IMG/VR virus record: IMGVR_UViG_3300012954_000057
Coordinates: 1-27,141 of that record
Direction: 5' to 3' (one strand)
Length of the DNA stretch: 27,141 bases
DNA from: a virus
Shown: one piece after another, positions 346 through 27,053 of the stretch
How the letters are laid out: each line of letters begins with the position of its first letter
Position numbering within the stretch: the stretch's first letter is position 1
Made by a program: the position numbers and the translations under genes
Notes under the pieces: generated by a model
What the model saw: the letters and a program-made list of their open reading frames with translations, nothing else
The model's database searches: none
Told to the model about the DNA's origin: nothing

Positions 346-346
<1 letters not shown>
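1..346 (-). CDS. Tail-fibre/baseplate-like virion protein, partial (runs off left edge)
   Basis: The reading frame starts at an ATG (344-346) and stays open to the left edge, giving about 115 residues. The first residues, MAYTRQIINLGTTADDGSGD, closely match the start of the next gene ([20 protein letters not shown]), and both continue with a segment rich in KVN.NF and then Asn/Thr/Gly/Ser beta-type sequence with DPNGSGKI-like repeats. This N-terminal motif is common in marine T4-like phage virion proteins annotated as tail-fibre or baseplate components, probably an attachment domain. Its ATG overlaps the stop of the upstream gene (TAATG), so the two are translationally coupled. The C-terminal part is outside the window. 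Confidence 0.8.
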
Positions 347-1023
<677 letters not shown>

Positions 1024-1373: not shown

Positions 1374-1780
1374 CTCGGGTTCCAATTATCGTAATCAGGC
1401 TCAGGAGCACTGAAAAAGCCTAAGTCCATTTGTGCCAATTCGCTGGCATACTCAGGCGTAAATGTAGGAGTAAACGTCATCTCTACTGTAACTGTATTTA
1501 CTCCTTCTGCGGCCTCAATGGCCTCTTTTACCCATATAGGCATTTCTCCTGCTACAGGGCAAAATGGAGATGTAAGTGTTAGTTTACATTTTACACTATC
1601 ATCTTCTAATATATCTAATTCGTATATTAATCCTAGATCAAATATGTTAATACTAATCTCAGGATCGTATACCTTCCTAAGATTTGCTATGATTTCATCT
1701 AGCATTTTAGGGTTTTGTTTAGTTGTTTTAAATTCGAATGTTCCGTCTTTACTCGGATACCTATTATAAATTTGAGTCAT
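1370..1780 (-). CDS. SufT/PaaD-type Fe-S assembly factor (MIP18, DUF59)
   Basis: A MIP18-family protein of 136 residues. The family signature VYDPEISINIFDLGLIYEL is at about residues 37-55, followed by a strand and the conserved cysteine C74 in LTSPFCPVAGEMP. Family members (SufT, PaaD, eukaryotic CIA2) help to insert Fe-S clusters into client proteins. The C-terminal tail (about 110-136) is acidic and aromatic and not part of the core domain. The gene overlaps the A-type carrier by four bases and follows the ferredoxin gene with a one-base gap, so the three form a single Fe-S cassette. Confidence 0.9.
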   Translation of the reverse strand: MTQIYNRYPSKDGTFEFKTTKQNPKMLDEIIANLRKVYDPEISINIFDLGLIYELDILEDDSVKCKLTLTSPFCPVAGEMPIWVKEAIEAAEGVNTVTVEMTFTPTFTPEYASELAQMDLGFFSAPEPDYDNWNPR

Positions 1781-1781
1781 G

Positions 1782-2093
1782 TTAATTAATGTGTGGTACC
1801 TTTATTTTTAGACTGTTATCAGGAACACCGTCTAGGTCACACTGACAGCCAAGTCTACTGTTATCTTGTTTATTGAAAGTGTATGCCAATTGATCTTCTT
1901 CCTCTTCATTTGGTGTTATTGGATACCCTTTTTCTATCTGTATATGACAGGTGGCACATATACATGATCCTCCACAGTCGCCCCAAGGCTCTCCTCTAAA
2001 GTGATCGTACAGTGCCACCATAATATTATCAGAGTCGCTATACTCAACATCAAATTCTCTTCCGCTTCGTGTAGTAACTCTAAACTTTTTCAT
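1782..2093 (-). CDS. 2Fe-2S ferredoxin, adrenodoxin type
   Basis: A 103-residue ferredoxin fold with the adrenodoxin-type ligand pattern C40-X5-C46-X2-C49 (GDCGGSCICATCHIQ) and the fourth ligand C83 in SRLGCQC. The additional C44 and C85 are extra. The protein is acidic in the middle (NEEEEDQ, about 62-67), as in electron-transfer ferredoxins. It heads the Fe-S cassette. Possible roles are supplying electrons for cluster assembly or reducing the [4Fe-4S] clusters of the radical SAM enzymes in this genome; the second role is inference. Confidence 0.93.
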   Translation of the reverse strand: MKKFRVTTRSGREFDVEYSDSDNIMVALYDHFRGEPWGDCGGSCICATCHIQIEKGYPITPNEEEEDQLAYTFNKQDNSRLGCQCDLDGVPDNSLKIKVPHIN

Positions 2094-2269: not shown

Positions 2270-3502
2270 TTATAATTTTTGGACCTCAAAAACCTGAATG
2301 CTTGATGTGGCTTCTCCACAATTATCAATACAGGCATTCAATTTTGGATTGTTTAGGTCTTTGGTTGTGTTTTTCCAACTATCGTATAGGTCCTTTGTGT
2401 AGAAATCATGAGATAGAATTTCATCAATAGTGTGATGATACAAGTTGTTAAAGTTATCCTCATACTTACTTGTCAATACCTCATATTCCTTACCATGAAA
2501 CAAAGTTGACTCCCACTGTGATCGCCAATCGTTCATGTAATGGTTTAGGTGGCAACAAGGATGAACTAGACCGTTGAACTCAACATTGATCTTTTTCATC
2601 TTCCCCCACCTACACGAAACATAAGTTTTGTCTCTATACTCATTCTCGCTAGAATATTTAGAAACCTTTTCCTGAACATTATCAGACATTATTTGGTTGC
2701 CGACATCGTAAACTAATGATCTTTTTTGTTCTTCTTTGTATTTTAACCTTTTTTCTTGCTTTTTACTTGTTGGTGTTTCAATAACTGCTCTGTTAACTAC
2801 ATCATTATCATTTTGTAAATTTTGTACTACTTTTTGTGCTACCAACTTCTTACCTCTGTTTCCCCTTGCTAGAAACTGAGAGAATCCTAAATCTTTTGCC
2901 ATCTGTCTTGCTGTTTCTGTTTGATGAGCATTGTGTTTAAATTCTAACCACTGCCATGCCGCTCTACCTCCAGCATCTATAAAGGCTTTGGCATTACGAA
3001 TAAGTTTATCAAAGTTAACACCTCTTCTATAAAGTTGGTGTGTTTGGTCATCTATTCCGTCAATACCAAATATAAATCTACTGTGTGGTCTATAGAATTG
3101 TTTTTGATATTCTGCTTGTTGTCTCCACCAGTCTTCGTTGTGTAATCCACCATTGGTTGCTACTTCCCAACCTGTGTGTTCTCCTTTAACTTTAATAAGA
3201 TATTCGGTTAAATTGTTTACATCTGGGTGTAACATAAAGTCTCCCCAGGTTCCATTGTATTCTACTACATTTAATCTTGGTGTAAAATCTTTTGTAAAGA
3301 GATTAGCAAAGGCCTCCATTTTCATGTGGCCTTTACTACCTTGGAAAGGTGCTATGGTAGGGTTGATAGCACCTTCTTCCAAACCTTTTAATTCTGCTTG
3401 TTTCTTATCGACCCACCTATCGCAGGCAGGACACATGGCGTTACAATTTGCTGTAAGTTCTACCTGGACATGGCGTATATTGTCATAATCATATGGATTC
3501 AT
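2270..3502 (-). CDS. Radical SAM protein with C-terminal cysteine (SPASM/twitch-like) region
   Basis: A 410-residue protein. The radical SAM motif CX3CX2C is at C20, C24 and C27 (ELTANCNAMCPACDRW) and would hold the [4Fe-4S] cluster that cleaves SAM. The usual GGEP is replaced by a diverged NGTWGDF stretch, and the barrel continues through FIFGIDGIDD. The C-terminal third has further cysteines (SCRWGK, PCCHLNH, CIDNCGE) typical of an auxiliary-cluster domain. A charged insert rich in Lys/Gln lies at about 230-275. It is a relative of the enzyme at 21273-22277 rather than of the twitch enzymes at 23-27 kb. The start overlaps the hydrolase gene by 14 bases. The substrate is unknown. Confidence 0.88.
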   Translation of the reverse strand: MNPYDYDNIRHVQVELTANCNAMCPACDRWVDKKQAELKGLEEGAINPTIAPFQGSKGHMKMEAFANLFTKDFTPRLNVVEYNGTWGDFMLHPDVNNLTEYLIKVKGEHTGWEVATNGGLHNEDWWRQQAEYQKQFYRPHSRFIFGIDGIDDQTHQLYRRGVNFDKLIRNAKAFIDAGGRAAWQWLEFKHNAHQTETARQMAKDLGFSQFLARGNRGKKLVAQKVVQNLQNDNDVVNRAVIETPTSKKQEKRLKYKEEQKRSLVYDVGNQIMSDNVQEKVSKYSSENEYRDKTYVSCRWGKMKKINVEFNGLVHPCCHLNHYMNDWRSQWESTLFHGKEYEVLTSKYEDNFNNLYHHTIDEILSHDFYTKDLYDSWKNTTKDLNNPKLNACIDNCGEATSSIQVFEVQKL

Positions 3503-5671: not shown

Positions 5672-6451
5672 CTATTTTTGGATATTTTTGGCTCTTTGAT
5701 ACCACCAATAATTTGGAGCATCTTCGTCATTTGGAACTGTGCCGTTTTGGAAATACTGCTCCAAATCTCTCCAAGTTTGGTCTTCAAAGTGATCATATTC
5801 CATATAAAGATATTCTTTTGAATCTCTCACTGCTTGATTGAAACTTTCAAATTGTACATCATATTTGAAACCCTCATTGATAAGCAGGCTCCCGCCGTGT
5901 TGCTTTAAGTCTGTAATAGGTTCAGCATCTGGATTATTCTTTACCCACCACGGAGTGTAATTGTCATGATGATTACCCTCACTTCTAAAGAACCCATTCA
6001 AAGGTAAATGATCTAGACCCGATGGCCTGTAGCCTGGAAAAACTTGATCATCAACTATGGCTAAATGGTTTCTAAGTTCTACTAGGTTTATAAAGTAACA
6101 AGAATTAAACAAACGTAAATACCAACCTTGGAATGTTCTATCTAAAACGTGTCCAATGGCCCACCAAAACTTATGTGATGTTTGCTCCATTACTAGTTTT
6201 AATGTTTGTTCTTGTTCTAAAAATATATTACCACTGCTAATTACAATGGCTGTATCATAATCGTTTTTGTGTTTGTAAATGTTTTTCCAAACAAGATGTT
6301 GTCTGTAATCCTCTGCTGGATCAGAATAAACATCACAGTTTGGATACATCTTTTTAGCATTGTCAACTGTGTGTTGATATAATTTTAGAGCCAGTCCTTT
6401 TGAATCTTGTATGTTGTATGGCTGATTGATGAAAATTGCTGTTCGACTCAA
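5672..6451 (-). CDS. Unknown 259-aa protein, TTG start
   Basis: The protein starts with a Rossmann-like strand (SRTAIFINQPY) and has DTAIVISSGNIFLEQ and FWWAIGHVLDR at about 67-105, followed by NGFFRSEGNHHDNY and several Trp/Tyr-rich stretches. The alternation of hydrophobic strands and helices suggests an alpha/beta domain, possibly of nucleotide-sugar or hydrolase type, but no motif is decisive. The start is a TTG that overlaps the stop of the upstream gene (TTGA), and the next ATG is 34 codons in. Its size and style resemble the unknown proteins of the 17-25 kb cluster. Confidence 0.65.
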   Translation of the reverse strand: MSRTAIFINQPYNIQDSKGLALKLYQHTVDNAKKMYPNCDVYSDPAEDYRQHLVWKNIYKHKNDYDTAIVISSGNIFLEQEQTLKLVMEQTSHKFWWAIGHVLDRTFQGWYLRLFNSCYFINLVELRNHLAIVDDQVFPGYRPSGLDHLPLNGFFRSEGNHHDNYTPWWVKNNPDAEPITDLKQHGGSLLINEGFKYDVQFESFNQAVRDSKEYLYMEYDHFEDQTWRDLEQYFQNGTVPNDEDAPNYWWYQRAKNIQK

Positions 6452-14345: not shown

Positions 14346-14477
14346 TTATATTCCTTCTTCAACATTCTGTAGGCCTGCCACGACAACTAGTACTGGAGGC
14401 TGTATCAATATCTCACCTGTGTATCCAGTCTTAAAATTTTCATCCGTTGACGTTAGGGCAATACCTACAAAATTCAT
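14346..14477 (-). CDS. Small protein, 43 aa, unknown
   Basis: The frame starts at ATG 14475-14477 (TAATG overlap with the ligase stop) and runs MNFVGIALTSTDENFKTGYT, then strands (EILIQPPVLVVVAGLQNVEE). It fills the gap between the ligase and the next small gene, where its last codons carry the next Shine-Dalgarno. No family recognised. Confidence 0.65.
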   Translation of the reverse strand: MNFVGIALTSTDENFKTGYTGEILIQPPVLVVVAGLQNVEEGI

Positions 14478-15787
14478 TAAATCTTTTCTCCTACTTCAAA
14501 ACCTCTAAATGTTTTAAATCTTGGAAACCTCAAACTGTAAGTTCCATCTTGATTCTGTGTGACAGCATCTGCTCTTACTTCTGCTACCATACCTAAAAGT
14601 CTATCTTTAGTGTCCCAAAATGTTTCTCTCTGTACATCACTTAGGCCACTACCAACATTTACTAAAATGTCTTTGCCATCATCTGTACCTTGACAAACAA
14701 GAGCACCAAGTTTACCAACATTTCTGCCAGTACCTTCTTCTGTTGCTACAACTTTCAAACTAACTTCTATAAAAGGTTTTGCTTTCAACATATGATGTGA
14801 TCTCTTACATTCATATGGAGCATCAATGTCTTTAATCATGATACCTTCATAACCTTCAGCAACTGCTTTCTTGTTAAGGTCTGTGTACGTTTTTTGTCCT
14901 TCGTCTGTATCTAAATCAACTTGTATTTTTTCTAATACAAACATACTTGAATCTTCTTTTAGATTATTACCAAGTTCAACTAATTGCTTGTGTCTATCAG
15001 CACAACCAAGTTTACTTTTACCTGATTGAAACTCTTTTAGTGTAAGCATATCAAACAGAGCCAACCTAGCATCTGTGGCATTCACGTTTGACTTTCTGTG
15101 TACCTGTTTCATCAAGTCTTGGAAAGTATCACTAACAACTTCTCCATCAAGCACCATTGACTCTTTGAAAGTACTTGCTACTGTGTTAAGAATCTCTTCA
15201 GCGATGTGTCCAAAATTATGTAACTCTTTACCATTTCTACTGTACATAGAAACAGTGTCGTTGTCAGCATTGTAAATTGTTACAACTCTAACACCATCTA
15301 GTTTTGTGTCTAAAAACTTTTTACCAACCATCTTCTTTTCATGATTAGCAGAATCGTGTGCCAACATACAAGTAAACACAGGTATCATATAATCTTTCTT
15401 ACCTAGTTTCTTAGTCACGTTGTTGATAGTCTTTTCACTAACACCACACTTTAAATCTTTTATAAGAATTCGTCTATACCAATAGTTCCATTCATCAGCG
15501 GTACTTTTGTTCATCGCTTCAATGATAGCATCTCTGGCATTATGTCCTGTAAGTTCTCTTTCATTTAACTTTGTTGCCAATTTAGTAAACTCATCAAAGT
15601 CTAATCCAACACCATCTGCTTCTGCTTGTGGTACTTGTTTAACACCAAAAGTATACAGAGGATCCAAAGCCATTCTACAGCCAGTGAAGAAGTTTGTGTG
15701 ATCACTTTCTGCTTGTTGTTTAATTACGTCTTCCTTGTACAACCTACTGTTGTCAGACTCTAACAACTTAATGACTATTGAACTCAT
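14477..15787 (-). CDS. ATP-dependent DNA ligase
   Basis: A 436-residue enzyme that seals DNA nicks using ATP. The adenylated lysine is K162 in motif I (DTKLDGVRVV). Also visible are motif Ia/III elements (SMYSRNGKEL, MVLDGEVV), motif IV (EGYEGIMIKD) and motif V (HHMLKAKPF). The N-terminal 140 residues form a helical domain with GVSEKTINNV as in T4-type ligases. The C-terminal OB-fold region (VSLKVVATEEGTGRNVGKLG) is complete. The length is close to T4 gp30. Needed for replication and repair of phage DNA. Confidence 0.95.
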   Translation of the reverse strand: MSSIVIKLLESDNSRLYKEDVIKQQAESDHTNFFTGCRMALDPLYTFGVKQVPQAEADGVGLDFDEFTKLATKLNERELTGHNARDAIIEAMNKSTADEWNYWYRRILIKDLKCGVSEKTINNVTKKLGKKDYMIPVFTCMLAHDSANHEKKMVGKKFLDTKLDGVRVVTIYNADNDTVSMYSRNGKELHNFGHIAEEILNTVASTFKESMVLDGEVVSDTFQDLMKQVHRKSNVNATDARLALFDMLTLKEFQSGKSKLGCADRHKQLVELGNNLKEDSSMFVLEKIQVDLDTDEGQKTYTDLNKKAVAEGYEGIMIKDIDAPYECKRSHHMLKAKPFIEVSLKVVATEEGTGRNVGKLGALVCQGTDDGKDILVNVGSGLSDVQRETFWDTKDRLLGMVAEVRADAVTQNQDGTYSLRFPRFKTFRGFEVGEKI

Positions 15788-16889: not shown

Positions 16890-17948
16890 TTATGTTTGGT
16901 ATTGGAGATTTTCCCATTTTGGGCATATAATTTCGCCGTCTATCAATTTATCATTACGGCTAACGTATTCATCTATGAGATTCAAAGCATAATTCAAGTT
17001 ATGCTCTTTTGGAATATCAAATTCGGGTATTGTGGTTTCAAAGAAGCGTAGTATTTCATTTACATCACGGTCAAAGAAGATTTTATCATATGAAAAACTG
17101 TGTTGTTTTGGAACATAGGTTTTGAATAACTTGTAGTGTCTCCAATATCTCAACAGGTCTATCTTATTTGTTCTAAATGTATTCCAATAGTCTTCGTCGT
17201 TTACATTTTCTATCTGATTTCTTACTTCACCTGAGTCGTGTTTATATTGAGCAAGAAAATAGGTATAGGCAAACACTTGGAAATCCAAATCAATATAAAA
17301 CCTATTTGTTACATTTGGACATAAGAATTCTAAACCAAACGGCCAATCGTGTACAACTAATTCTATTCTTTCCATTTCTCTATCTGTTCTATAAAGGAAT
17401 AATACTAGTTCTTTGTATTTGGCGAACACTTTGTCCCAAGTAATCAATCCATGTGTTGCTTGTTTGGCTAGTTCTTCAGCATCTACTACCATATTAGAAA
17501 AGTCTCCTTGTACACTGTCTTCTAAATGATTGCCTCTCCATCTTACACCATATTGGTCGTCCCATAAGTTATCTTTTCTATTTGCTGTTTCGTTGGCATA
17601 GTCAACACCTGGATAATCAACCGTAGCACCATTTGTTTCTAACCACCAGTTCTGTAGCACACCTAGATAACTGCTACCAGAGCCATAAGGAACAACTGCT
17701 ATATCAATTGATAAGTTTTGTATAAAATGTAATATGTCTTTATCTTGAATATGTAATTCAGTTAGACATGATTTAGGAATCACTATACCAGTGGCACTTA
17801 CTTTTTCTACACTGTTTCTTACTAACCAAGTAAGGTCTTCTGCTGTTAATCCTTCAAGTTCTCTCAAACCTATATCTCTAAGATATTGTTTGACATCACT
17901 TCTATTAATTGCTTTGTAGATTATATCACCTTGATTAACGTGTTCCAT
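16890..17948 (-). CDS. Sulfotransferase-like protein, long form (352 aa)
   Basis: Residues 83-100 have the family motif DIAVVPYGSGSSYLGVLQ, which resembles the 5'-phosphosulfate loop of sulfotransferases (P-x-G-[ST]-x-x-[FL]). Further elements shared with the three paralogues in this cluster are a strand followed by PFGLE (about 203-208) and a C-terminal IFFDRDVNEILRFFE with SRNDKLI. The N-terminal 80 residues are an extra helical domain not present in the others. It is the last gene of the cluster. No PAPS-binding arginine/serine pair can be assigned with certainty, so the activity is inference. Confidence 0.5.
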   Translation of the reverse strand: MEHVNQGDIIYKAINRSDVKQYLRDIGLRELEGLTAEDLTWLVRNSVEKVSATGIVIPKSCLTELHIQDKDILHFIQNLSIDIAVVPYGSGSSYLGVLQNWWLETNGATVDYPGVDYANETANRKDNLWDDQYGVRWRGNHLEDSVQGDFSNMVVDAEELAKQATHGLITWDKVFAKYKELVLFLYRTDREMERIELVVHDWPFGLEFLCPNVTNRFYIDLDFQVFAYTYFLAQYKHDSGEVRNQIENVNDEDYWNTFRTNKIDLLRYWRHYKLFKTYVPKQHSFSYDKIFFDRDVNEILRFFETTIPEFDIPKEHNLNYALNLIDEYVSRNDKLIDGEIICPKWENLQYQT

Positions 17949-18588
17949 ATTCTAATATCTCATTGTTTCTACTATTGTACTTAACCAATAAGTCAACTAT
18001 TTTATCTATATTGAAATCTCTTCCATTGGGTGTTGCTTTCAACAGCATTTGTATAACACCTTTATTGGGTTTGACAAAAACATCTTCATACTCTACATGA
18101 TAATCAAATGTACATTTTATTTTTGTTTCAACATGATTTTGCCATTCCTTATTACATTCTTCATACCATAGATCATCATTTTGTTCGCCACGACAGTCAA
18201 CAGGCAAATCATTGTTTTTGATAAGTCCTAATTTGTAGCACCAAAAGAATCTATCCTTTGTACAACTTAAAAAGAATCTATTGTTAAGTGTGATAAACTT
18301 ATCTAGTCCAAATGGGTAATAATGAAACAATAACTCTGCTCCATCTTCAATAGCATTAGCAAACTTTTTATAGTTTGACTCTGTGGCATTGTTTATATTA
18401 TTGATTGTTCTTTTAATTTCTTTTGCCGTAGGTGTAAGTGGTTCAAACTTTTTAAACTGTAGAACATAATCGTCCCAACAGTTATCTGCTTTTGTATCAC
18501 CTAGATTGGTAGTGATAATGTGTTGTAAGTATCCTAAAAAACTAGTACCTGCTCCCATAGGGCCAACAAGTATATCAATATGTTTCAT
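17935..18588 (-). CDS. Sulfotransferase-like protein, short form (217 aa)
   Basis: It begins with the motif DILVGPMGAGTSFLGYLQ at about residues 4-21, has the central HYYPFGLDKFI, then NRFFLSCTKDRFFW, the position where sulfotransferases bind the 3'-phosphate, and ends YEDVFVKPNKGVIQ ... YNSRNNEILEYG. This order of elements matches sulfotransferase topology, while GPMGAGTS also resembles a degenerate Walker A loop. The ATG at 18588 is preferred to a GTG four codons upstream. It overlaps both neighbours. Confidence 0.5.
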   Translation of the reverse strand: MKHIDILVGPMGAGTSFLGYLQHIITTNLGDTKADNCWDDYVLQFKKFEPLTPTAKEIKRTINNINNATESNYKKFANAIEDGAELLFHYYPFGLDKFITLNNRFFLSCTKDRFFWCYKLGLIKNNDLPVDCRGEQNDDLWYEECNKEWQNHVETKIKCTFDYHVEYEDVFVKPNKGVIQMLLKATPNGRDFNIDKIVDLLVKYNSRNNEILEYGTR

Positions 18589-19738
18589 AACTTTTGTCAC
18601 CTGGGAATAAAGGAAGTTTAGTGCCTGGTGCTCTCTTAGGTATTTTACTATCTGCTGAACTCACACAACTTCCACTAATACATTTCATAGGTTTAGAAAA
18701 CAGTTTAAATCCTGTTTCAATATTACCAAGTGGAGCATCACTACATGAATATGATCGCTTAACACTGCCGTCAGGCTCTCGTATGATAATACTACGGAAA
18801 CCACTGCTACACTCCCAACCATTAAATTTGTTAAAGTTGAAAGCATTAAATCTTTCTGCTTGATCCATATACCATTCTTTATGTTTACCATCTTTGAATT
18901 CTACTTGAAAGTGTTGTGGTACGTTTTCTACACCAAAGTTTTTGTATATAGGATCTGGTGCTCTCATAAAGTTTGGCTTAGGTCTTTCGACGTGTTTATT
19001 TTTTACTTCTGTAAATCCTCTTTGTGGCATACCATTGTGTAGCCTTGCTAACATATCTTCTGTGTATCCATGTACAACTTTACTTGCTGTTGGATCTGAC
19101 TGTGGCTTTAGTGTTACGTTGATACCTCTGTTGTGGAAGTATAAACTTTCTTCCCACAGTTCTTCAAACCATTCAGGCACCATAACTTGGTTAATTGTAA
19201 CTTGTACATCATGTTCTTGAACAAAGCAAAGTTTATCAGCAAACTGTTCACGCTTTTCTTGTGAGTTAACGTGTTCTCTATGATAACTTGCTGTTATACT
19301 TGCTCTATGAAACTTAGAGGCGTGTTCTACATACTGCTCAAACCATTTCATATTTCTACTACAGTTTGAAGTCATATGAACACTTGTATAATTTGTATTG
19401 TCTACATCATCTGCTAGATGCTTCATCATGTCTAAATATCCAGGATGAAAAGTAGGCTCACCACCACTAAGACTAAAATGAAAACTGTTAAAACCATTTT
19501 CTCTCGCTTGTCGTTTTATCTCATCGATTGTATGAAGACAGAGCTCTGTTGGCCTGTGATCTTTCTTATCTGATCTGGCGTATGGCCAGCAATAACTACA
19601 ACGATAGTTACAGAAGCGACCAAGAAGCCAACTAACAGTAAACATATCTCGATATAGCATCGTCCTTTGTCCCACACGGACAAGATCGTTGAAAGGAATT
19701 TGTGTAAAATCATATTCACTCCACTTTAAATCACTCAT
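18575..19738 (-). CDS. Radical SAM enzyme with C-terminal twitch/SPASM-like domain
   Basis: A 387-residue enzyme with CX3CX2C at C43, C47 and C50 (GRFCNYRCSYCWPYAR), the SAM-binding motif SLSGGEPTFHPG, and a C-terminal cysteine region (WECSSGFRS, SYSCSDAPLGN, KPMKCISGSC) of the auxiliary-cluster type, like peptide-modifying SPASM/twitch enzymes. It is the most canonical radical SAM protein of the window. It overlaps a sulfotransferase-like gene on both sides. Substrate unknown. Confidence 0.88.
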   Translation of the reverse strand: MSDLKWSEYDFTQIPFNDLVRVGQRTMLYRDMFTVSWLLGRFCNYRCSYCWPYARSDKKDHRPTELCLHTIDEIKRQARENGFNSFHFSLSGGEPTFHPGYLDMMKHLADDVDNTNYTSVHMTSNCSRNMKWFEQYVEHASKFHRASITASYHREHVNSQEKREQFADKLCFVQEHDVQVTINQVMVPEWFEELWEESLYFHNRGINVTLKPQSDPTASKVVHGYTEDMLARLHNGMPQRGFTEVKNKHVERPKPNFMRAPDPIYKNFGVENVPQHFQVEFKDGKHKEWYMDQAERFNAFNFNKFNGWECSSGFRSIIIREPDGSVKRSYSCSDAPLGNIETGFKLFSKPMKCISGSCVSSADSKIPKRAPGTKLPLFPGDKSYETY

Positions 19739-20589
19739 GTCGTTGCCTCCAGTAAGTGTTGAAAATCATCAGAGAAACTTATGTGTTTTTCTTTTGCTAA
19801 CATTATGTTCTTGTCTGTAACTGCTTTAATCATCTTCTTAACTGTTTCTAACTTACTGTCTTGTAATTCTCCAGGCACTGTGCCTAAGAAAAACTTCTTA
19901 ATTTCCTGTTCATCTCTATCAAAAAAGAATTTATTGTAGTCAATATTTGTTTCTGCTGGATACAAATCTAAAGCATCATTGTATCTTCTTAAAACTAATC
20001 TTGACTTTTCTAATAGTTCTCTTTCTGTAGGACTGTGTTTTGCCTTTTTAATATCCTTTAAACGTTCACACCAATATGCTGTGTCTAAGTTTGTTGGATT
20101 AACAGCGAGTAGATGTTTAACATTCCTAAAATATTTATTCACACCTTCAATACCAATTGGTAGATAGTGTGTGTAAATTATTGCTGATGTAACACCTTCT
20201 AATGTTTTGTATTTTTCCAAGTTCATTTCATTTAGTTTCTCAGCAAGATAGTGAACCCATTGTTTCCTCTGCTGATTGATACTGCTAGTGATACCATTTT
20301 GCTGTGTCCAAACTCTAGACCTTTTACCCCAAAGTCTTAACAATTCTTTTCCTAGATATTCATTATTCACCATTGGATTATTGAAACTTTGGCTTTCTAT
20401 TTTTGGTTCCCATTTGTTGTAAATGCTGATTCCTGTACCATAATTCCTTGACCAAGATATATTCTCTGTTATATCTATTGCTTGTTCTTCTCCTTTATAG
20501 TACTTCTGTAAGTAACCCATAAAAGCATTGTTGCCACCTTCAGGAAAAGTTACAAAATAAAGAGTTACATTTTCAAATATCTTATCCAT
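19735..20589 (-). CDS. Sulfotransferase-like protein (284 aa)
   Basis: The N-terminus has the family motif LYFVTFPEGGNNAFMGYLQ (10-28), with Gly-Gly-Asn-Asn in place of GAGxx, then an IYTHYLPIGIEGV segment (about 145-158), KHLLAVNPTNLDTAYW, and the C-terminal FFFDRDEQEIKKFF. The order of elements is as in its three paralogues. The ATG at 20589 leaves an eight-base overlap with the upstream gene; one at 20607 is also possible. The loop differs most from sulfotransferases here, so loss of cofactor binding is possible. Confidence 0.45.
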   Translation of the reverse strand: MDKIFENVTLYFVTFPEGGNNAFMGYLQKYYKGEEQAIDITENISWSRNYGTGISIYNKWEPKIESQSFNNPMVNNEYLGKELLRLWGKRSRVWTQQNGITSSINQQRKQWVHYLAEKLNEMNLEKYKTLEGVTSAIIYTHYLPIGIEGVNKYFRNVKHLLAVNPTNLDTAYWCERLKDIKKAKHSPTERELLEKSRLVLRRYNDALDLYPAETNIDYNKFFFDRDEQEIKKFFLGTVPGELQDSKLETVKKMIKAVTDKNIMLAKEKHISFSDDFQHLLEATT

Positions 20590-21280
20590 GCTGTTTGACC
20601 CAATCATTTATTTTATGTTGTATCTTTTCGTGATCTGCTGACGCTTCTGATGTGCTAACTGCTTTGTTGATTGTGTTGTTAGGAAACATATCCAACAGTT
20701 CTGGCCAGTCAGTAAGCATCACCCAATAAGGTGTAAGTTGATTTAATCTGATACACTGTGTAGCAAGACTGCCTACGTCTTGTCTACGTTTCAGTTTTGA
20801 ATTATGTGTTTCTTTGATATAAGCACTAAGTGAATCTATTATAGGTGGCGTTGTCTTTCTCAATGCTTTGTTAAGTCCTCTTCTGTGTTGAAACATTAGA
20901 ACGTTATGATGTGCTTCGCTTTGTAAAAGATTACTGCTGGTAAATGGCAATTCAGTTAATAAGTTTTCTGTATAGTCTTCATAGTTTAAATCTTCTATTG
21001 ACAAGTCATCAATTAAACAATCATCTCTCGGATCAATCCAACTGATTCTATCTTCCTGTGTTGTTGTGATAACATAAAGGCCTCTATCATCTACATTGTT
21101 TACAAACCAATCAATCATTAGACTAACAACAAAATTACAACTGCCAGGCCTACTTAAACTGACAACGTCAGCACCAAAGCCTTGTGCTAGTCTATAACTG
21201 TATGTGTTACTGTTTTCAGTTGATACGCCATTGCTACAACTAAATGGTTCGCCACCAGCATTGTAAACTGTTCTAAACAT
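20582..21280 (-). CDS. SGNH-hydrolase-like protein B (232 aa)
   Basis: The layout follows small phage SGNH/GDSL hydrolases: a first strand and Gly/Ser-rich loop (NAGGEPFSCSNGVS, 7-20, in place of GDSxxxG), a helix, and the strongly typical VVSLSRPGSCNFVV (39-52, block II). The end has DHEKIQHKINDW, recalling the block V Asp-His pair. Cysteines at 15 and 48 are unusual. The GDS motif is not intact, so the esterase activity of the family may be lost or altered. Confidence 0.5.
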   Translation of the reverse strand: MFRTVYNAGGEPFSCSNGVSTENSNTYSYRLAQGFGADVVSLSRPGSCNFVVSLMIDWFVNNVDDRGLYVITTTQEDRISWIDPRDDCLIDDLSIEDLNYEDYTENLLTELPFTSSNLLQSEAHHNVLMFQHRRGLNKALRKTTPPIIDSLSAYIKETHNSKLKRRQDVGSLATQCIRLNQLTPYWVMLTDWPELLDMFPNNTINKAVSTSEASADHEKIQHKINDWVKQHG

Positions 21281-22277
21281 TCATGTCCTTTTCATCTATT
21301 ACACTAACGGCATTGTGTTGTTTCCACTTGCCACCTTTACAGGTAGTCCAGCAAACTTTATATTCACAACTTTCTTTGTTTTTCCATTCGTTTTTCATAT
21401 GATCCCAAACTTCATGTTCAAGTATTGTTTGTAGATCGTGTTTACTAGCATTGTTAAAGTCATCTCTATAATGATAATAAAGGTATTCAAATTTCTCAAA
21501 TGCTGGCACGTTAAAATGACTCATTTGGTAGTGTTGACTTGTATAACAACAAGGCCATATTCTGCTTTCAGCGTTTATATAAAGTCTATTGATATCTAAA
21601 CTTTTACAACTGATATCATCTTGTATTTTATTCTGTGTTTGTCTAAGAGTATTTGAACTTGCTGTAGCAAAGTTTTTGTCTGTTTCTTTTGTACTGATCC
21701 TCATACTTGCTTCACTTCTAAAACGCCAAAAGCCTTCGTTCTTACTCCTTGTGTGTACCTCATCTAATTGGTGCTTGTTGTGATCAAACACTAAGAACTT
21801 CCATACTGCTTTTCCACCTGCTTTAATGTAAGTACGAAAGTTTCTCTGTAGTCTATCCCAATTAACATTTACTCTGTAGATATGATTGGTATCTTCTAGT
21901 CCATCAATACTAAATGTAACGTGTAGATTTTCTATCCTACCTATATTACGCCAAAAAGATTCATTCTGCATTCCCCCGTTAGTATCAACGTGTATGCTTT
22001 CTACTAAACTGCTCCACTCTAATAATCCTAAGTAGATATCAGGATTCATAAATGGATCACCTATATTACCCACAAGATGTAGTTCTAATTTTTCTTTAGC
22101 ATTTGGTATTTGTTCAATTACTTTTGTTACAGTATCAACTGACAGATGTTGTTCAACTAGATTAGGAAGTTTTTTACTTGTACCCCAATAGTGTCTAGCA
22201 CAACCTGGACAAGCGGCGTTACAGTATGTAGATAATTCTACTTCTAAACTTTTTATATTTTCCAACTTATTGAACAT
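21273..22277 (-). CDS. Radical SAM protein (334 aa) with cysteine-rich C-terminus
   Basis: The CX3CX2C motif is C19, C23 and C26 (ELSTYCNAACPGCARHYW). The GGEP position reads VGNIGDPFMNP, a diverged form shared with the enzyme at 2270-3502, and FSIDGLEDTNHIYR follows in the barrel. The C-terminal part has ISCKSLD, WPCCYTSQHY and CEYKVCWTTC, possible ligands for an auxiliary cluster. The start overlaps SGNH-like gene A by 11 bases and the stop overlaps gene B by eight. Confidence 0.86.
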   Translation of the reverse strand: MFNKLENIKSLEVELSTYCNAACPGCARHYWGTSKKLPNLVEQHLSVDTVTKVIEQIPNAKEKLELHLVGNIGDPFMNPDIYLGLLEWSSLVESIHVDTNGGMQNESFWRNIGRIENLHVTFSIDGLEDTNHIYRVNVNWDRLQRNFRTYIKAGGKAVWKFLVFDHNKHQLDEVHTRSKNEGFWRFRSEASMRISTKETDKNFATASSNTLRQTQNKIQDDISCKSLDINRLYINAESRIWPCCYTSQHYQMSHFNVPAFEKFEYLYYHYRDDFNNASKHDLQTILEHEVWDHMKNEWKNKESCEYKVCWTTCKGGKWKQHNAVSVIDEKDMNV

Positions 22278-22890
22278 ATTTCTTTAATAGTTTAAATACC
22301 TGGTGATGTCCTTCAGCACCAAGTTTCCTTTCTGGAGCATAAATTCTAAAAAAATCAGGAGCATGGGTAGTCAACTTTGATTCTTGTACAAGCCAATTCC
22401 ACATCCAATTAAATCCAGGATAATTTTTGTCAATTCTAACAACTTTTACTTCTTTAGTTCCTCTTTTTATTTCTCTTGAATTTTCATAAAAAATCTTTAC
22501 ATTCTTTTTGTGTGTTATTTTACATAATATATCAAAAACAAACTTGTTCTGCCATACTCTAAAGTCTTCTTCGTTGTGTATGCCAGTATCAATTGAAACT
22601 TTATGTTGAGGACCTTTTGAATTCCAACTTAAACTACGATCACAACTAGGAGCAAAACTAACAAACCTATCCTGTGGTTCCATTTTGTTTAATATTTCAC
22701 TTACTTGGCTCAAATAATACACAGGAGATATACCTATGTTGTCTAATACATTGCCTACATAAACAGGTTCCATATCCCAACGTTCTGCTAGAAGTTCCCA
22801 CCAGTGTTCACCTTTTTGTACGTTGAACCCATCATGAGCACCTGGTGATGCTATCAGTTGATCTCCGTATGTGTACAGTTTAGCAATCAT
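22267..22890 (-). CDS. SGNH-like protein A with GDQ in place of GDS (207 aa)
   Basis: The N-terminal LYTYGDQLIASPGAHDGF (5-22) aligns with block I of SGNH hydrolases (GDSxxxG), but the catalytic serine is replaced by glutamine (G9-D10-Q11). HWWELLAERW follows as in phage SGNH proteins, and the C-terminus has GAEGHHQVFKLLKKYV, a block V-like His region. With the nucleophile missing this is likely a binding protein, or uses another residue. It overlaps the next gene by 11 bases. Confidence 0.5.
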   Translation of the reverse strand: MIAKLYTYGDQLIASPGAHDGFNVQKGEHWWELLAERWDMEPVYVGNVLDNIGISPVYYLSQVSEILNKMEPQDRFVSFAPSCDRSLSWNSKGPQHKVSIDTGIHNEEDFRVWQNKFVFDILCKITHKKNVKIFYENSREIKRGTKEVKVVRIDKNYPGFNWMWNWLVQESKLTTHAPDFFRIYAPERKLGAEGHHQVFKLLKKYVQ

Positions 22891-23065
22891 ATTGATTCCT
22901 CATGACCCATTCTCTTGGTATTGACCATTCAGGTCCATCAGCACTATCCCATTCAGCCAATAATTGTAGTCCATCTTCAGGATAGTGTTCGTCCATTAGT
23001 AAATCTTCTTCGTATTCACTAGGTTCCTGTGGTTCTAAATAATTCTTCATACTGTGGTACGACAT
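22880..23065 (-). CDS. Small acidic protein ending in cysteine (up to 61 aa)
   Basis: The frame is rich in Glu/Asp/Trp (NYLEPQEPSEYEEDLLMDEH, LLAEWDSADGPEWSIPREWV) and ends NQYDC. The upstream start overlaps the twitch enzyme by 47 bases without a Shine-Dalgarno; a start at 22996 (MDEHYPEDGL, 38 aa) lies just beyond the upstream stop and may be correct. It sits between a twitch radical SAM and SGNH-like gene A, so a small substrate or recognition peptide is possible. Confidence 0.5.
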   Translation of the reverse strand: MSYHSMKNYLEPQEPSEYEEDLLMDEHYPEDGLQLLAEWDSADGPEWSIPREWVMRNQYDC

Positions 23066-24338
23066 CTAGTATATTCTGCTTTCTTGCTTTGTCCAAATAT
23101 GTTGTAAACTTGATAAATTCTTCTAATTTATCTGAATAATCATCTGCCATCATATATTTTTCTACACTGTCTAGAATTTTATTGAATTTATTTTTTATTT
23201 TTTCATTTATATTTGGATCTGTAGCAACTTTAAATTTATAATAATCATAATGATTGTGTACTTTTAATTTTAATTCAGGAGTTAATAATCTAATATTTGC
23301 TCTTTTAGGACCATGTGCCACGTGATGTGTAATAATTGGTTTTTGTGGCGATGAATTAATCTTTTTCCAATTAGATTCTTTTAATTTCCACAGCATGAAT
23401 TCAGGTAAATGAAATATATTATATGCTGTTACAGTGTAGGCAACCCAAGCAACTATATTATTAGGTAATTGATCTATTTTATTTAAATTATTAATTGCTG
23501 ATTTCCATTTAACAGGCCAGCGTTGATATTCTAATACTTCTCCCATGCCATCTATTGAACAGCCTACTCTTATTTGTTTGAATTCTCTCCACATTTCCAA
23601 CACTCGGGGTGGCAGGCTAGTCATGTTAGTATTATATTCTATTGTGATATTACCAGCATGACCAGAACCTATACACTTTTTAAGGAATTCATAGTGTCGT
23701 TCAATCATCATAGGTTCACCACCTGCCATATAAACGTGCTGAATGTATGGAATATTCTTTTCAATTTGATCCCAAAAAGTTTCTGAATTATGCCAATCGT
23801 AGTCTGTTGTGTACAGCCTACCTTTTTCATTACGTTTAAGTTCTACTTCACCGTGTGTGTCTTTGTATTTGGTTGAGCCGTGATATTCTGCCCATTGTTC
23901 GTACCATGTGTGTGAGTCTGTTGGACCACACATTCTACAGGCTAAATTACACAGATTGCCAAATCTCAAATCAAAGTAACTGCTACGAACAGTTATGGTG
24001 CCATCAGGTTGGGTGTCTTTTTTGGCATCAGCAAGGGTGTAGTCCCATGCTCGTAATTCATACATCCTACGGCTTTCGAGGCCGGCTTGTTCTTCCTGTT
24101 GACATCTTCCACATTCTTCTGACCATACTCCGTCAAGCATATTCTTTCTAATTGACTTCATTAAATCAGCATTTTTAGCCTCATTAAATGAATCTCTACC
24201 AGCATTGTAACTGGACCCATCAGGATGCCTTACAACGCCTTGATTGGGTGTGACGTTGGCTTGACAGCAAACACGGATGTCGCCGTTGTTTCTAACTGCT
24301 TGGAATATCCATGGAATTGGACAGAATGTTTTACTCAT
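23019..24338 (-). CDS. Radical SAM enzyme with N-terminal twitch-type cysteines (B)
   Basis: A 439-residue enzyme. N-terminal cysteines C7, C25-C26 (VCCQAN) and C77-X2-C80 precede the radical SAM motif C131-X3-C135-X2-C138 (NLCNLACRMCGPTDSHTWY). The motif VYMAGGEPMMIERHYE (203-218) binds SAM. Proteins of this layout in marine phages are usually annotated as twitch-domain radical SAM proteins. The C-terminal 120 residues are Lys-rich and helical. The ATG at 24338 is chosen over a GTG one codon earlier. It lies nine bases after the sulfotransferase-like gene. Confidence 0.9.
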   Translation of the reverse strand: MSKTFCPIPWIFQAVRNNGDIRVCCQANVTPNQGVVRHPDGSSYNAGRDSFNEAKNADLMKSIRKNMLDGVWSEECGRCQQEEQAGLESRRMYELRAWDYTLADAKKDTQPDGTITVRSSYFDLRFGNLCNLACRMCGPTDSHTWYEQWAEYHGSTKYKDTHGEVELKRNEKGRLYTTDYDWHNSETFWDQIEKNIPYIQHVYMAGGEPMMIERHYEFLKKCIGSGHAGNITIEYNTNMTSLPPRVLEMWREFKQIRVGCSIDGMGEVLEYQRWPVKWKSAINNLNKIDQLPNNIVAWVAYTVTAYNIFHLPEFMLWKLKESNWKKINSSPQKPIITHHVAHGPKRANIRLLTPELKLKVHNHYDYYKFKVATDPNINEKIKNKFNKILDSVEKYMMADDYSDKLEEFIKFTTYLDKARKQNILDVVPQYEELFRTTGT

Positions 24339-24347
24339 CACACTTAT

Positions 24348-25022
24348 TTAATCATATCTTTCTAATAATTCGTTGTTTTTAGCACTGTATAATTCAATCA
24401 ATTCCTGTAGATCTCGTGTCGTAACCAGTGTTTTAACACGTCTGCTTGTAACTGTTCTGTCTATAAATTCTGAAATAACTGCTCTATCTTTTACCAAAAA
24501 TAGGCTAGTATAGTCTATCGCCCATTCACTTCTGTAATTGGGTATGTTTTCTATTTCCCATTTAAACAGGCGCCTTGCTAGATCCTGTCTAATAGGGTCT
24601 GCTTCTGCTCCTTCTTTCTTCAGCATGGCTAGATCATCCAACCATATTCGCTGTATGGGATCGTCCGTGAACATCATAAATGAATACCTATTAACGTGTG
24701 GAATAGTGTAGCCAAAGCAGAATGATCCCTCGTGGCAACTGTTTACATTGTTACGGATCTGCTGTTCTGCTGTCTTGGGTTCTATACGTTTATATAGTAG
24801 TTTTTCTGTGATATCCTGGCACTCCAGCAACTGTTTATTCCAGTTGGTACGGGGCAGGAACTGTTCTACGAAGTGTACAGGCTGACTCCAACTGTCAAAC
24901 AGATTGTTTTCCTGTATCCGTGCTTCTATCTGTCGACGATCTAGTTCACCTACAACGTAACTCTGTAGAGCACCTAGAAAGTTCTTACCTGCTCCATGAG
25001 GTACTACACAAAACTCTCTCAT
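24348..25022 (-). CDS. Sulfotransferase-like protein (224 aa)
   Basis: It begins MREFCVVPHGAGKNFLGALQ, the clearest copy of the family motif, including a GAGK-type loop. The other family elements follow: FGYTIPHVNRYSFMMFTDDP (about 127-146), with DDPIQRIWLDD at the position of the sulfotransferase RDPxxxxxS, and at the end SLFLVKDRAVISEF and YSAKNNELLERYD. The ATG follows AAAGGAATTCATAA. This region is visibly richer in G+C than the genes to the left. A kinase-like P-loop fold is an alternative. Confidence 0.5.
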   Translation of the reverse strand: MREFCVVPHGAGKNFLGALQSYVVGELDRRQIEARIQENNLFDSWSQPVHFVEQFLPRTNWNKQLLECQDITEKLLYKRIEPKTAEQQIRNNVNSCHEGSFCFGYTIPHVNRYSFMMFTDDPIQRIWLDDLAMLKKEGAEADPIRQDLARRLFKWEIENIPNYRSEWAIDYTSLFLVKDRAVISEFIDRTVTSRRVKTLVTTRDLQELIELYSAKNNELLERYD

Positions 25023-25187
25023 TTATGAATTCCTTTATAACTGTATTTAATTTAGGTGGCCCAGGAGACCCCTAAAAACGGAGTTAAAAAATTTTTTTGC
25101 TCTGTACATAATCGCCTATAAACTACACATATTATAAGAGGGCGTGGCGGCGAACTATAGAAGCGGAGCGTAAAAATTTTTTACACC
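25023..25187. other. Intergenic 165 bp, palindromes, no gene
   Basis: Holds a perfect A/T palindrome (GTAAAAA/TTTTTAC type, about 25170-25184), a second A/T run (25086-25097), a TATAAT on the minus strand near 25130 without a good -35, and the Shine-Dalgarno of the next gene. No frame of note. A terminator after the 70-aa gene or a weak promoter could lie here. Confidence 0.5.
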
Positions 25188-25400
25188 TTATATTTCCTTG
25201 GGTGTTACTGTGGTAAACTCTAGGCCGTATGCTGTGGCTACCCATGTGTTGCCTGACAATCCTCCCGGCTTGAACGTGAGTTTTTGATTGGCTAACCATA
25301 CAGTAAGTGTATCTCTGGGTTTGAAGTATTCCACTTCCGCTTCATTGACTATCCCATTGTCTGTACACTTTACTGGTACTTTTTCGTATTGAACTGACAT
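25188..25400 (-). CDS. Small beta-rich conserved phage protein, 70 aa
   Basis: The protein (YEKVPVKCTDNGIVNEAEVEYF ... TWVATAYGLEFTTVTPKEI) is nearly all strands. Similar proteins with IPVKCTxTGxVNxAxVxYF and a GMEFTT-like end are found in T4-like marine phages, usually near early genes; function unknown. It has its own promoter (25426-25454) and an AAAGGAATTC Shine-Dalgarno. Confidence 0.8.
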   Translation of the reverse strand: MSVQYEKVPVKCTDNGIVNEAEVEYFKPRDTLTVWLANQKLTFKPGGLSGNTWVATAYGLEFTTVTPKEI

Positions 25401-25425
25401 TTGAATTCCTTTCGTTATGTCGTAT

Positions 25426-25454
25426 AATATACACTATAAGCACTGTGAAGTCAA
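25426..25454 (-). promoter_or_regulatory. Sigma70-like promoter, leftward
   Basis: TTGACT (25449-25454), 17-base spacer, TATATT (25426-25431). It would drive the 70-aa gene and, by read-through, the rest of the radical SAM cluster. Confidence 0.65.
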
Positions 25455-25485
25455 CCTAAATCCAAGCATTACCAAGAGGCGGAGA

Positions 25486-25554
25486 TACTATATGTAGTAC
25501 ACTGTACACAATAATAGCATAGTCTAAAGACTAGCGTATCGCTCTGCTCACGCT
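25486..25554. other. Run of three inverted repeats
   Basis: In the 174-base gap after the twitch gene A: TACTA/TAGTA (25486-25499), TAGTC/GACTA (25520-25533, extendable to GC..GC with a bulged A) and AGCGT/ACGCT (25533-25554). No T-run follows the stems, so they do not look like a plain terminator. They may mark a processed RNA or a protein binding site. Confidence 0.4.
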
Positions 25555-25574
25555 TATTAGATTAATTAAATCAA

Positions 25575-26711
25575 TTACTGTGTGTAGTCTGCTAGTGAAT
25601 CCCATAATAAAGGATTTAATTTAGAGAAGTCTGTGCCTCTGTGTGAGTCTAATTGACGTGTAATAGCCAAGAACTGTGGCACTTGCTGTGGGTCAAATGG
25701 TGTGTGGTCCAACCATTTTTTCAACTCTCCCCGTCTCTCCAAAATGTTTTTTTCTTGTATGCTAATACCATTCAACCATTGTCTACGGTATCTATCGGGC
25801 AGGATCGCTATGCTAAGCCATGGTTGATCCACTGTATTAACTGTTATCGCCTGTGGTTCGTACTGTTCTATCCACTGTATAGTTCTGAAATAGTCTTGAA
25901 AGTTCCACGCTTGTAAACAGAAATTGAAACCTATTACTGTGTTGTATTTCGCTAATTGATTATTATTTAAATAATTAACAGCGTTTTCGAACCTATCCCA
26001 ACGTGCTGGTGTCCTTATATATTCGTAATATTCTTCTGTACCGTCCACACTTATATTGAAATTAACCTGTGCTATCTGTTTAAACAGCGTTTCCCATTGT
26101 TTAAACTGTGTGACATTACTGGCATTTGTTGTTATATTTAGGTATGAATGTTCCTGCTTAACTAATTGTTTTAATTGTGTTTCTATTTCAGTCTGTAGTG
26201 TGGGTTCTCCCCCTAGTAATTTCAGATTGGTTACACGAGGTAGCGTGGGTAATTCGTGGTGCTTACGCTGTTTTAATACGCTGTCCACACTCCATCCTAG
26301 GTCACTGTATTCCCTGGCAACTTCTGTTGAGTTATCGGGAAAGCACATACGACACTTTAGGTTACATAGGTTTGAGGGCCTTATGTCCGCCCAGTAGGGT
26401 TCTGGCATATCTAACGCTGGCTCGGGCAGGCTAACGCTTGAATTACTATACCATTGATCATACATATCGCGATCATTGCCTAGGCCCAGGTCCTCACGCT
26501 TCTTACACTCGTGACAGGTGGGGTGATATTGGTCCCTCAGCATATACTCTCTCACTTCCTGTGCCAGGTCGTTGTTGAATATTTCTGACATTTCGTTTGA
26601 TTTTATCGGGTGGTGACCATTGGCCGTACAGCACACACGGCTCTCCCTAGAGGAGGCCCTGAGATACACGTTGTAGAAAGGGGCATAACATTTGACTTTT
26701 CTGGTTGACAT
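25575..26711 (-). CDS. Radical SAM enzyme with N-terminal twitch-type cysteines (A)
   Basis: A 378-residue enzyme. N-terminal C8, C27-C28 (RVCCTANG) and C66-X2-C69 correspond to the twitch-type auxiliary cluster ligands of the enzyme at 23019. The SAM motif is C116-X3-C120-X2-C123 (NLCNLKCRMCFPDNSTEVAR), and LKLLGGEPTLQTE (163-175) binds SAM. NISVDGTEEYYEYIR follows in the barrel. It is the first gene of the cluster in transcription order. Its codon use and G+C content are higher than most of the window. The start codon overlaps a rightward -35 element. Confidence 0.9.
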   Translation of the reverse strand: MSTRKVKCYAPFYNVYLRASSRESRVCCTANGHHPIKSNEMSEIFNNDLAQEVREYMLRDQYHPTCHECKKREDLGLGNDRDMYDQWYSNSSVSLPEPALDMPEPYWADIRPSNLCNLKCRMCFPDNSTEVAREYSDLGWSVDSVLKQRKHHELPTLPRVTNLKLLGGEPTLQTEIETQLKQLVKQEHSYLNITTNASNVTQFKQWETLFKQIAQVNFNISVDGTEEYYEYIRTPARWDRFENAVNYLNNNQLAKYNTVIGFNFCLQAWNFQDYFRTIQWIEQYEPQAITVNTVDQPWLSIAILPDRYRRQWLNGISIQEKNILERRGELKKWLDHTPFDPQQVPQFLAITRQLDSHRGTDFSKLNPLLWDSLADYTQ

Positions 26712-26733
26712 CTGGTGTATCCTGTGCTATTAT
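26705..26733 (+). promoter_or_regulatory. Sigma70-like promoter, rightward
   Basis: TTGACA (26705-26710), exactly 17 bases, TATTAT (26728-26733) on the plus strand, reading into the GC-rich region. The -35 overlaps the start codon of the leftward twitch gene. The -10 is inside a TGCTAT/ATAGCA hairpin (26725-26739). Confidence 0.6.
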
Positions 26734-26739
26734 ATAGCA

Positions 26740-27050: not shown

Positions 27051-27053
27051 CGG

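Follow-up and report, generated by a model that had tools for sequence, protein, structure and literature searches.

A radical SAM gene island of a marine T4-like virus and its conserved core in viral arrays and Bdellovibrionota

Here we describe the whole IMG/VR record IMGVR_UViG_3300012954_000057 (27,141 bases, a fragment; "the window" below), which carries at 16890-26711 an island of 12 minus-strand open reading frames (ORFs): four radical S-adenosylmethionine (SAM) genes, four genes of a sulfotransferase-like (ST) family, two SGNH-like genes and two small ones. Genes are named by their first coordinate (Table 1), and the radical SAM families are called TwiX (25575), Twi0 (23019), R21 (21273) and R18 (18575). 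Its R18, R21 and Twi0 genes belong to an R18-R21-Twi0/R469 core (R469 is a radical SAM family of viral arrays, not seen in the window), which recurs in viral contigs and in Bdellovibrionota genomes. This core, its Bdellovibrionota counterpart, the ST lineage and the pattern of a conserved core with diverging ST proteins are new, in that no describing paper was found in the open literature (subscription papers and preprints lie outside this coverage). We read the island as a phage-encoded cytosolic multistep pathway that may build or edit a surface-exposed glycan or glycoconjugate, a substrate that we infer, with a probability of roughly 40%.

The source is a marine T4-like phage, judging from the genes for a T4-type baseplate/tail-fibre connector and a DNA ligase in the window and from its syntenic relatives, which encode a DNA polymerase, a clamp loader and tail-fibre-type proteins.

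Conserved radical SAM core of the island

Radical SAM genes were assigned by the CxxxCxxC 4Fe-4S motif together with the PF04055 barrel profile above its curated cut-off. Both are found in all five radical SAM genes of the window, namely a fifth outside the island and the four (25575, 23019, 21273 and 18575) already recognised in a preliminary description of this DNA, and the cysteines are invariant in alignments A4, A5 and A7. TwiX and Twi0 also exceed the 170-bit full-length cut-off of N_Twi_rSAM (NF033640; 234 and 384 bits), for which we know of no assigned function, whereas R21 (51) and R18 (41) fall below it and belong to no curated radical SAM subfamily. Conserved cysteines lie at 43/47/50 and 310/332/353/358 in R18 and at 19/23/26, 243/244, 309 and 313 in R21; the extra ones (310/332/353/358 and 243/244/309/313) are candidates for auxiliary iron-sulfur (Fe-S) clusters, with the SPASM profile PF13186 below its cut-off. 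PDB sequence searches with R18, R21 and Twi0 gave only partial, weak matches to unrelated radical SAM enzymes, so a substrate is not transferable from them, and no relative of R18 was found among isolated phages.

All twelve ORFs first described are present at their coordinates on the minus strand, and neighbour overlaps of 4-47 nucleotides (nt) were borne out for the longest ORFs from 16890 to 24341. Several of these longest-ORF starts are probably not real (23019, 19735 and 17935 have an ATG few codons in; that of Twi0 is probably the ATG at codon 2), so the true overlaps are often shorter. ORF 24348 lies 6 nt from ORF 23019, and gaps of 165 and 174 nt, in which no terminator-like sites were found, set off 25188 and 25575. 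The evidence for the single operon proposed earlier is therefore strong for ten genes and weaker for these first two. Membrane-spanning segments are predicted in none of the 12 island proteins, so their chemistry should be cytosolic.

The block order TwiX - Twi0 - R21 - R18 - ST - ligase is kept in three other contigs (four with the window): L006 (22 kb), G372 (93 kb; loci L014, L118 and L198) and G371 (82 kb; loci L199 and L200). The preliminary description had treated the twelve genes as one joint set and had named gene order in other contigs as a check; the radical SAM core and its order were found in all four contigs, but the full twelve are not conserved, with both SGNH-like genes and 22880 (61 aa) absent from the three syntenic contigs. 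Protein identity among the four contigs is 87-91% for R18, 77-92% for Twi0 and 62-85% for the DNA ligase, and it is 53-76% for R21, 50-55% for TwiX and 35-62% for ST24348. Compared with the window copies, identities are 77-79% for Twi0 and 62-64% for the ligase in the three contigs, 52-57% for the R21 orthologues, 46-47% for the TwiX orthologue in L014 and L199, and 24-44% (BLAST) for the ST proteins other than 24348. Among the four contigs, R18 and Twi0 agree at no more than 50-72% of their codon third positions, and such positions are near saturation in other contigs (about 50-60%) where protein identity stays high, which indicates that the protein conservation goes beyond chance and reflects selection rather than recency.

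G371 has, between TwiX and ST, another SGNH-like gene (motif GCSY... HPG..SH, read by eye) adjoining a protein whose PRSGS loop looks canonical by eye and which matches nothing in Pfam. Since the SGNH-like genes are swapped or absent and the ST proteins have diverged while the radical SAM genes are kept, the latter are the fixed part of the island and the ST/SGNH-type proteins the varying part. Radical SAM genes number nine in G371 and seven in G372, and the fifth one of the window (2270-3502) has a syntenic orthologue (49%) in G372. In G372 there are also genes for a sugar epimerase and for a homologue of UDPG/GDP-mannose dehydrogenase, and a tail-fibre-type gene is located about 10 kb from the island in both G371 and G372.

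Outside the island, an A-type Fe-S carrier, a PaaD/SufT-type assembly protein and a 2Fe-2S ferredoxin stand in a row at 1053-2093, adjoining the fifth radical SAM gene. This trio is probably the cofactor supply for the island, and the ferredoxin is a possible electron donor. It is partly common to relatives: both G371 and G372 have the A-type carrier and the ferredoxin, and G371 contains two further A-type carriers (three in the contig) and an IscS-like aminotransferase class V protein adjoining a DnaJ protein (L203:9865-11860).

Other genes of these relatives were also recorded. Three PP-loop (QueC-like) ATPase genes lie in a row beside a glycine-rich tail-fibre-like gene of G371 (74951-79554; L206), and the same contig has, about 3 kb past the island, a 370-aa gene that is amidinotransferase-like by eye, without a Pfam match. 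In G372 an acyl-carrier-like protein (PF00550; 521-856, L207) is encoded directly downstream of a partial TwiX gene at the contig end.

Viral arrays and a counterpart in Bdellovibrionota

Viral contigs were scanned with the twitch-type Twi0 as seed (at least 585 relatives; 80 loci kept) and with R18 as seed (at least 590 relatives; 80 loci kept), giving 160 sampled loci of at most about 21 kb each in two partly overlapping sets with contigs in common. Loci of the Twi0 scan contain Twi0 (75/80), R21 (71/80), R469 (68/80), TwiX (64/80) and R18 (63/80), with a median of 9 radical SAM genes per locus and a maximum of 14. In the R18 scan, TwiX is found in 72/80, R21 in 59/80, R469 in 41/80 and Twi0 in 34/80 loci, and the median is 7. 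The preliminary description had held that a joint pathway would be unlikely if the families occurred mostly apart; for the radical SAM genes they occur together in two differently seeded scans. This co-occurrence and the kept gene order support its inference of a joint multistep modification pathway.

The accessory genes of the arrays vary, and include those for PLP (pyridoxal phosphate) aminotransferase, nitroreductase, PP-loop/QueC-like ATPases, carbamoyltransferase, Asp/Asn hydroxylase, B12-radical SAM and AMP-binding proteins. Constant partners (families c5, c6/c10 and c8) have no Pfam match. The c6/c10 family (e.g. L105:5200-6159), which has no PDB sequence match either, is common to viral arrays and Bdellovibrionota loci, has an invariant DGDN-type motif and looks glycosyltransferase-like by eye. 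A strongly conserved 75-aa protein (LQKESARALSTMQATNNNI...HHNSQNWYKAVI...GDLPS..GPGKD) is encoded at L018:8604-8822 and in about 28 other loci, in many arrays between a c5 methyltransferase-like gene and R21. It was considered as a peptide precursor or carrier and set aside, being conserved along its whole length; no homologue was seen in the window.

In the genome collection R18 occurs at 25 loci, mostly in metagenome-assembled genomes (MAGs) of Bdellovibrionota, and was found in 22 of the 369 Bdellovibrionota genomes searched, most carriers having one full-length copy. These chromosomal copies are about 57-69% identical to the window R18. R21 lies near R18 in 21 of the 25 loci and R469 in 20, often directly adjacent, and the R18-R21-R469 set stands on Bdellovibrionota MAG contigs that are in some cases hundreds of kb long. 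A family 2 glycosyltransferase (GT2) gene is located within 10 kb of R18 in 6/14 Bdellovibrionota genomes, compared with about 8% expected from density (binomial p about 4e-4, approximate). For example, in locus L113 the R18 set stands beside a sugar epimerase, an asparagine synthase, GT2 genes and an acyltransferase-3/SGNH fusion. The bacterial set has R18, R21 and the c5/c6/c10 neighbours in common with the viral arrays; it differs in that it usually has few radical SAM genes rather than an array, that no ST proteins were found in it, and that GT2, epimerase and acyltransferase genes are neighbours in some genomes.

In the R18 tree, viral sequences (including the window) group with those of Bdellovibrionota in a single, well-supported assemblage apart from other R18-like paralogues; the branching order of viral and Bdellovibrionota sequences is poorly supported, so the direction of transfer is not given by it. 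Copies labelled otherwise group with viral sequences, and the MAG contigs L093, L095, L104, L111 and L117 (Rickettsiales, Gammaproteobacteria, Chloroflexi and Acidimicrobiaceae labels) are probably misbinned viral contigs. A marine Rickettsiales MAG (L093) was rejected as a bacterial home of R18, since its length and coordinates equal those of the IMG/VR virus contig L121.

Multi-radical-SAM T4-like phages, and radical SAM genes together with Fe-S genes, have already been published, so the phenomenon itself is not new; the earlier statement that no described pathway has such a set is right as to function and needs correction as to these phages (PMC5332604, PMC2853527, PMC7029224). Among the closest known systems is the 183-kb T4-like Tara genome TARA_ERS488813_N000010, a marine phage with 12 radical SAM genes, an A-type Fe-S carrier and paaD (PMC5332604); the accessible text of that source gives it as a gene count and describes no families, no structure of the operon, no core set, no counterpart in cells and no substrate. 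Campylobacter phages CP220 and CPt10 have 11-12 radical SAM genes and a swappable five-gene radical SAM cassette (PMC2853527). This cassette (L012) is likewise a clustered, swappable module of a large phage and contains three R21-family members by hidden Markov model (HMM), but it also has amidinotransferase-like and nucleotidyl-transferase-type genes, its sole R18-like match is weak (72 bits), and identity to the window R21 is about 25%. A cassette of the CP220 type would combine about five clustered radical SAM genes with an amidinotransferase, and no amidinotransferase was found in the window.

Pelagimyophages carry radical SAM cassettes in a host-recognition cluster, where they are gained or lost beside the tail-fibre region, the radical SAM families not being specified there (PMC7029224), and Tasman Sea viruses are enriched in radical SAM, glycosyltransferase and RmlD genes (PMC7150976). 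TwiX-type genes also exist in Vibrio phages K566 and KVP40 (L011, L013), several in tandem in K566, but at 22-24% identity and with no R18, Twi0 or ST in the regions fetched. Few unexplained metabolic investments seen in phage genomes are as large as radical SAM arrays (five genes in 27 kb here, up to 14 in about 21 kb elsewhere). Now that the core set has a name and a counterpart on chromosomes, the presence of many such genes in a phage can be treated as a pathway open to testing.

The ST and SGNH-like proteins and possible products

The four proteins called sulfotransferase-like in the preliminary description form one family by self-BLAST and alignment, with the motif PxG[AGS]GxxF[LMI]GxLQ and a conserved C-terminal part (alignment A2). 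The name is less secure: there is no match to a sulfotransferase profile and none to Pfam, NCBIfam or PDB sequences. For the AlphaFold2 model of 19735 (predicted local distance difference test, pLDDT, 77), the three best PDB matches are sulfotransferases (7r0o with probability 0.97 and 0.87, 3ap3 with 0.87), and tyrosylprotein sulfotransferase-2 is among the top fold matches; the matches are weak (best E-value 7e-3, template modelling (TM) score about 0.3-0.4), and later ones are mostly other P-loop folds. From this model, the family likely has a P-loop, sulfotransferase-like fold, and sulfotransferase activity is predicted at most.

A viral fold search with the ST model returned mostly unnamed phage proteins, and a scan of viral contigs with 16890 alone gave no relative. 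The family was seen only in the four contigs of the island lineage and as lone copies in L201 and L202, where the fetched stretches contain no radical SAM gene; the 23-kb L201 contig is also without a radical SAM match. These lone genes (L201:2940-3605 and L202:3454-4116) lie upstream of a large gene that by eye resembles a T4 baseplate-wedge gene (gp6-type).

The two proteins described earlier as degenerate SGNH-like do have motifs resembling blocks I and V by eye, but no database match and no catalytic Ser: the GDS of block I is absent (GGEPF in 20582, GDQL in 22267), neither has a Pfam match, and no relatives of either were found in viral-contig scans, isolated phages or related loci. The predicted model of 20582 is unusable (pLDDT 36), with no relatives to build on. 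Of the small proteins, 22880 has no homologue among about 185 related loci, and 25188 has no match in isolated phages.

In the glycan pathway that we favour, the Fe-S proteins would charge and reduce the radical SAM clusters, and R18, R21 and Twi0 would perform a fixed radical step on a common building block, such as C-H activation, epimerisation, dehydration or C-C/C-S bond formation. ST and SGNH proteins would add or trim variable decorations, e.g. sulfate or acyl groups; selection by host receptors would then account for the faster divergence of these proteins. The product may end on the host envelope, with altered adsorption or superinfection exclusion, or on the virion tail fibres, and the data fit either. 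This pathway is supported by the four-contig synteny, the conservation of R18 and Twi0 against the divergence of ST, the co-occurrence of the radical SAM genes and the Fe-S supply genes. Gene content suggests the same through the Bdellovibrionota R18 set with its GT2 enrichment, the epimerase and acyltransferase-3/SGNH fusion of L113 and the sugar genes of G372. The tail-fibre-type gene about 10 kb off in two relatives, the place of the pelagimyophage cassettes in a host-recognition cluster (PMC7029224) and the cytosolic nature of the twelve proteins speak for it too.

Several observations weigh against a glycan product. No glycosyltransferase was recognised within the island, and the twelve genes also include no flippase or polymerase as in a capsule or O-antigen locus, with no membrane segments. 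In the bacteria, no more than 6 of 14 genomes have GT2 close to R18, and the rate expected is an approximation, as GT2 genes cluster and the counts refer to the matches listed. The match of the modelled ST fold is weak; the 5'-phosphosulfate loop P-[KR]-x-G lacks a conserved basic residue, the ST family having E/H/Y/M/Q/T/V there; and hhalign profile comparison of the family with the adjoining PRSGS-motif protein of L199 showed no relation. The SGNH label comes from motifs read by eye. Twitch/SPASM-type radical SAM enzymes often act on peptides, and a protein substrate fits equally.

Such a protein substrate is the basis of the first of two serious rivals, in which the radical SAM and ST proteins would act in the cytoplasm on proteins of the tail fibre or baseplate (introducing, e.g., cross-links, hydroxylation or tyrosine sulfation), a rare case of radical SAM enzymes acting on a virion. 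It agrees with the cytosolic nature of all island proteins, the tail-fibre-type gene that G371 and G372 carry about 10 kb from the island, the match of the ST model to tyrosylprotein sulfotransferase-2, the Asp/Asn-hydroxylase genes of array relatives, and the lone ST gene among virion/replication-type genes in L201 and L202. We nevertheless consider it unlikely, as R18-R21-R469 occurs on bacterial chromosomes with GT2 enrichment and no phage structural genes noticed nearby.

The second rival, which we regard as rather unlikely, is synthesis of a small molecule (signal, cofactor or toxic metabolite) that benefits the infected cell, as proposed for CP220, where a metabolic benefit with better fitness at low oxygen is argued (PMC2853527). 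Array relatives do recruit nitroreductase, aminotransferase, carbamoyltransferase, PP-loop ATPase, AMP-binding and B12-radical SAM genes, and one has an acyl-carrier-like protein; however, no transporter or complete known pathway was recognised, and fast ST evolution beside fixed R18 and Twi0 is easier to explain by host-facing variability.

Less likely are the remaining two. The twitch/SPASM-type cysteines, the small ORFs and a weak similarity of the radical SAM genes to several peptide maturases would suit a ribosomally synthesized and post-translationally modified peptide (RiPP) for signalling or against competitors, with 22880 or 25188 as the precursor cyclised by the radical SAM enzymes; this is improbable, since 22880 is without a homologue and not conserved, 25188 is conserved along its whole length with no leader/core character, the NCBIfam maturase matches are far below their cut-offs, and no RiPP family matched the small proteins scanned. 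Hypermodification of phage DNA or RNA bases by radical SAM and QueC-like PP-loop enzymes is very improbable: QueC-like PP-loop genes occur near relatives and near radical SAM genes in KVP40, but the QueE-like matches of the radical SAM genes are weak and far below cut-offs, the island has no thymidylate-hydroxymethylase or base-kinase partner, and ST and SGNH proteins have no role in known base modification.

Taken at its widest, our reading is of an undescribed multi-radical-SAM system on the R18-R21-Twi0/R469 core, which would make radical-modified glycans or glycoconjugates of a new class. Its swappable arrays of up to 14 radical SAM genes would be common among marine tailed viruses, with a cellular version in Bdellovibrionota, and phages would use it, together with an Fe-S supply and diverging decorating enzymes of their own, to alter the surface of the infected cell or the virion. 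In this full extent it is tentative and rather doubtful. If the product is a surface glycan, the island would stand for a new class of modification, encoded by phages and directed at the envelope or the virion, and would be a source of radical SAM chemistry not seen before.

Other genes and non-coding sequence of the window

Table 1. Genes of the island and other annotated genes of the window (identities are to orthologues in the contigs named)
Feature	Coordinates	Strand	Evidence
T4-type baseplate wedge/tail-fibre connector	346..1014	-	PHROG 677, 2.4e-19; T4_gp9_10_N just under cut-off
A-type Fe-S carrier (IscA/SufA/ErpA-like)	1053..1385	-	PF01521, 8.1e-15; 60-61% in G371, G372
PaaD/SufT-type Fe-S assembly protein	1370..1780	-	PF01883, 1.3e-15
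2Fe-2S ferredoxin	1782..2093	-	PF00111, 4.3e-6; 60-72% in G371, G372
Fifth radical SAM (second R21), 410 aa, outside island	2270..3502	-	PF04055 over cut-off; R21 HMM 330 bits
Family c19 protein	5672..6451	-	c19 HMM 69.7 bits; 44-50% in G371, G372
ATP-dependent DNA ligase, syntenic flank, evolutionary yardstick	14477..15787	-	PHROG 114, 1.9e-89
ST-family protein with N-terminal extension, 352 aa	16890..17948	-	Alignment A2; 24-28% in L014, L200
ST-family protein, 221 aa	17935..18600	-	Self-BLAST and alignment A2; 25% in L014
Radical SAM R18, 387 aa, most conserved island gene, marker of wider system	18575..19738	-	PF04055 48 bits
ST-family protein, 290 aa	19735..20607	-	AlphaFold2 model, pLDDT 77; 44% in L014
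Degenerate SGNH-like, 232 aa, lineage-specific insertion	20582..21280	-	Motif only, GGEPF... SRPGSCN
Radical SAM R21, 334 aa, C-terminal SPASM/twitch-like cysteines	21273..22277	-	PF04055 37 bits
Degenerate SGNH-like, 207 aa, lineage-specific insertion	22267..22890	-	Motif only, YGDQL... GAEGHHQVFKLL
Small acidic protein, 61 aa	22880..23065	-	ORF only
Radical SAM Twi0, N-terminal twitch family, 440 aa	23019..24341	-	NF033640 384
ST-family protein, 224 aa	24348..25022	-	Alignment A2; 35-39% in L006, L014, L199
Small conserved protein, 70 aa	25188..25400	-	38-44%, same place in L014, L199
Radical SAM TwiX, 378 aa, N-terminal twitch-type cysteines	25575..26711	-	PF04055 45.8 bits; NF033640 234

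Members of family c19 stand beside radical SAM arrays in 13/80 and 19/80 loci of the two scans. A signal-peptide protein at 7912-9222 has a weak, below-cut-off likeness to alginate lyases and 44-47% identity to its counterparts in the three syntenic contigs; it is possibly a depolymerase.

T4 late-promoter motifs are not enriched in the window, and sigma-70-like sites and terminators occur about as often as expected by chance. Upstream of 25575, about 430 nt at 26712-27141 are GC-rich and non-coding, with no Rfam match at the gathering threshold; they fold slightly better than shuffled sequences (z -1.5). Short stretches of this leader recur between genes in G371 and G372, and it is perhaps a promoter or a repeat element.

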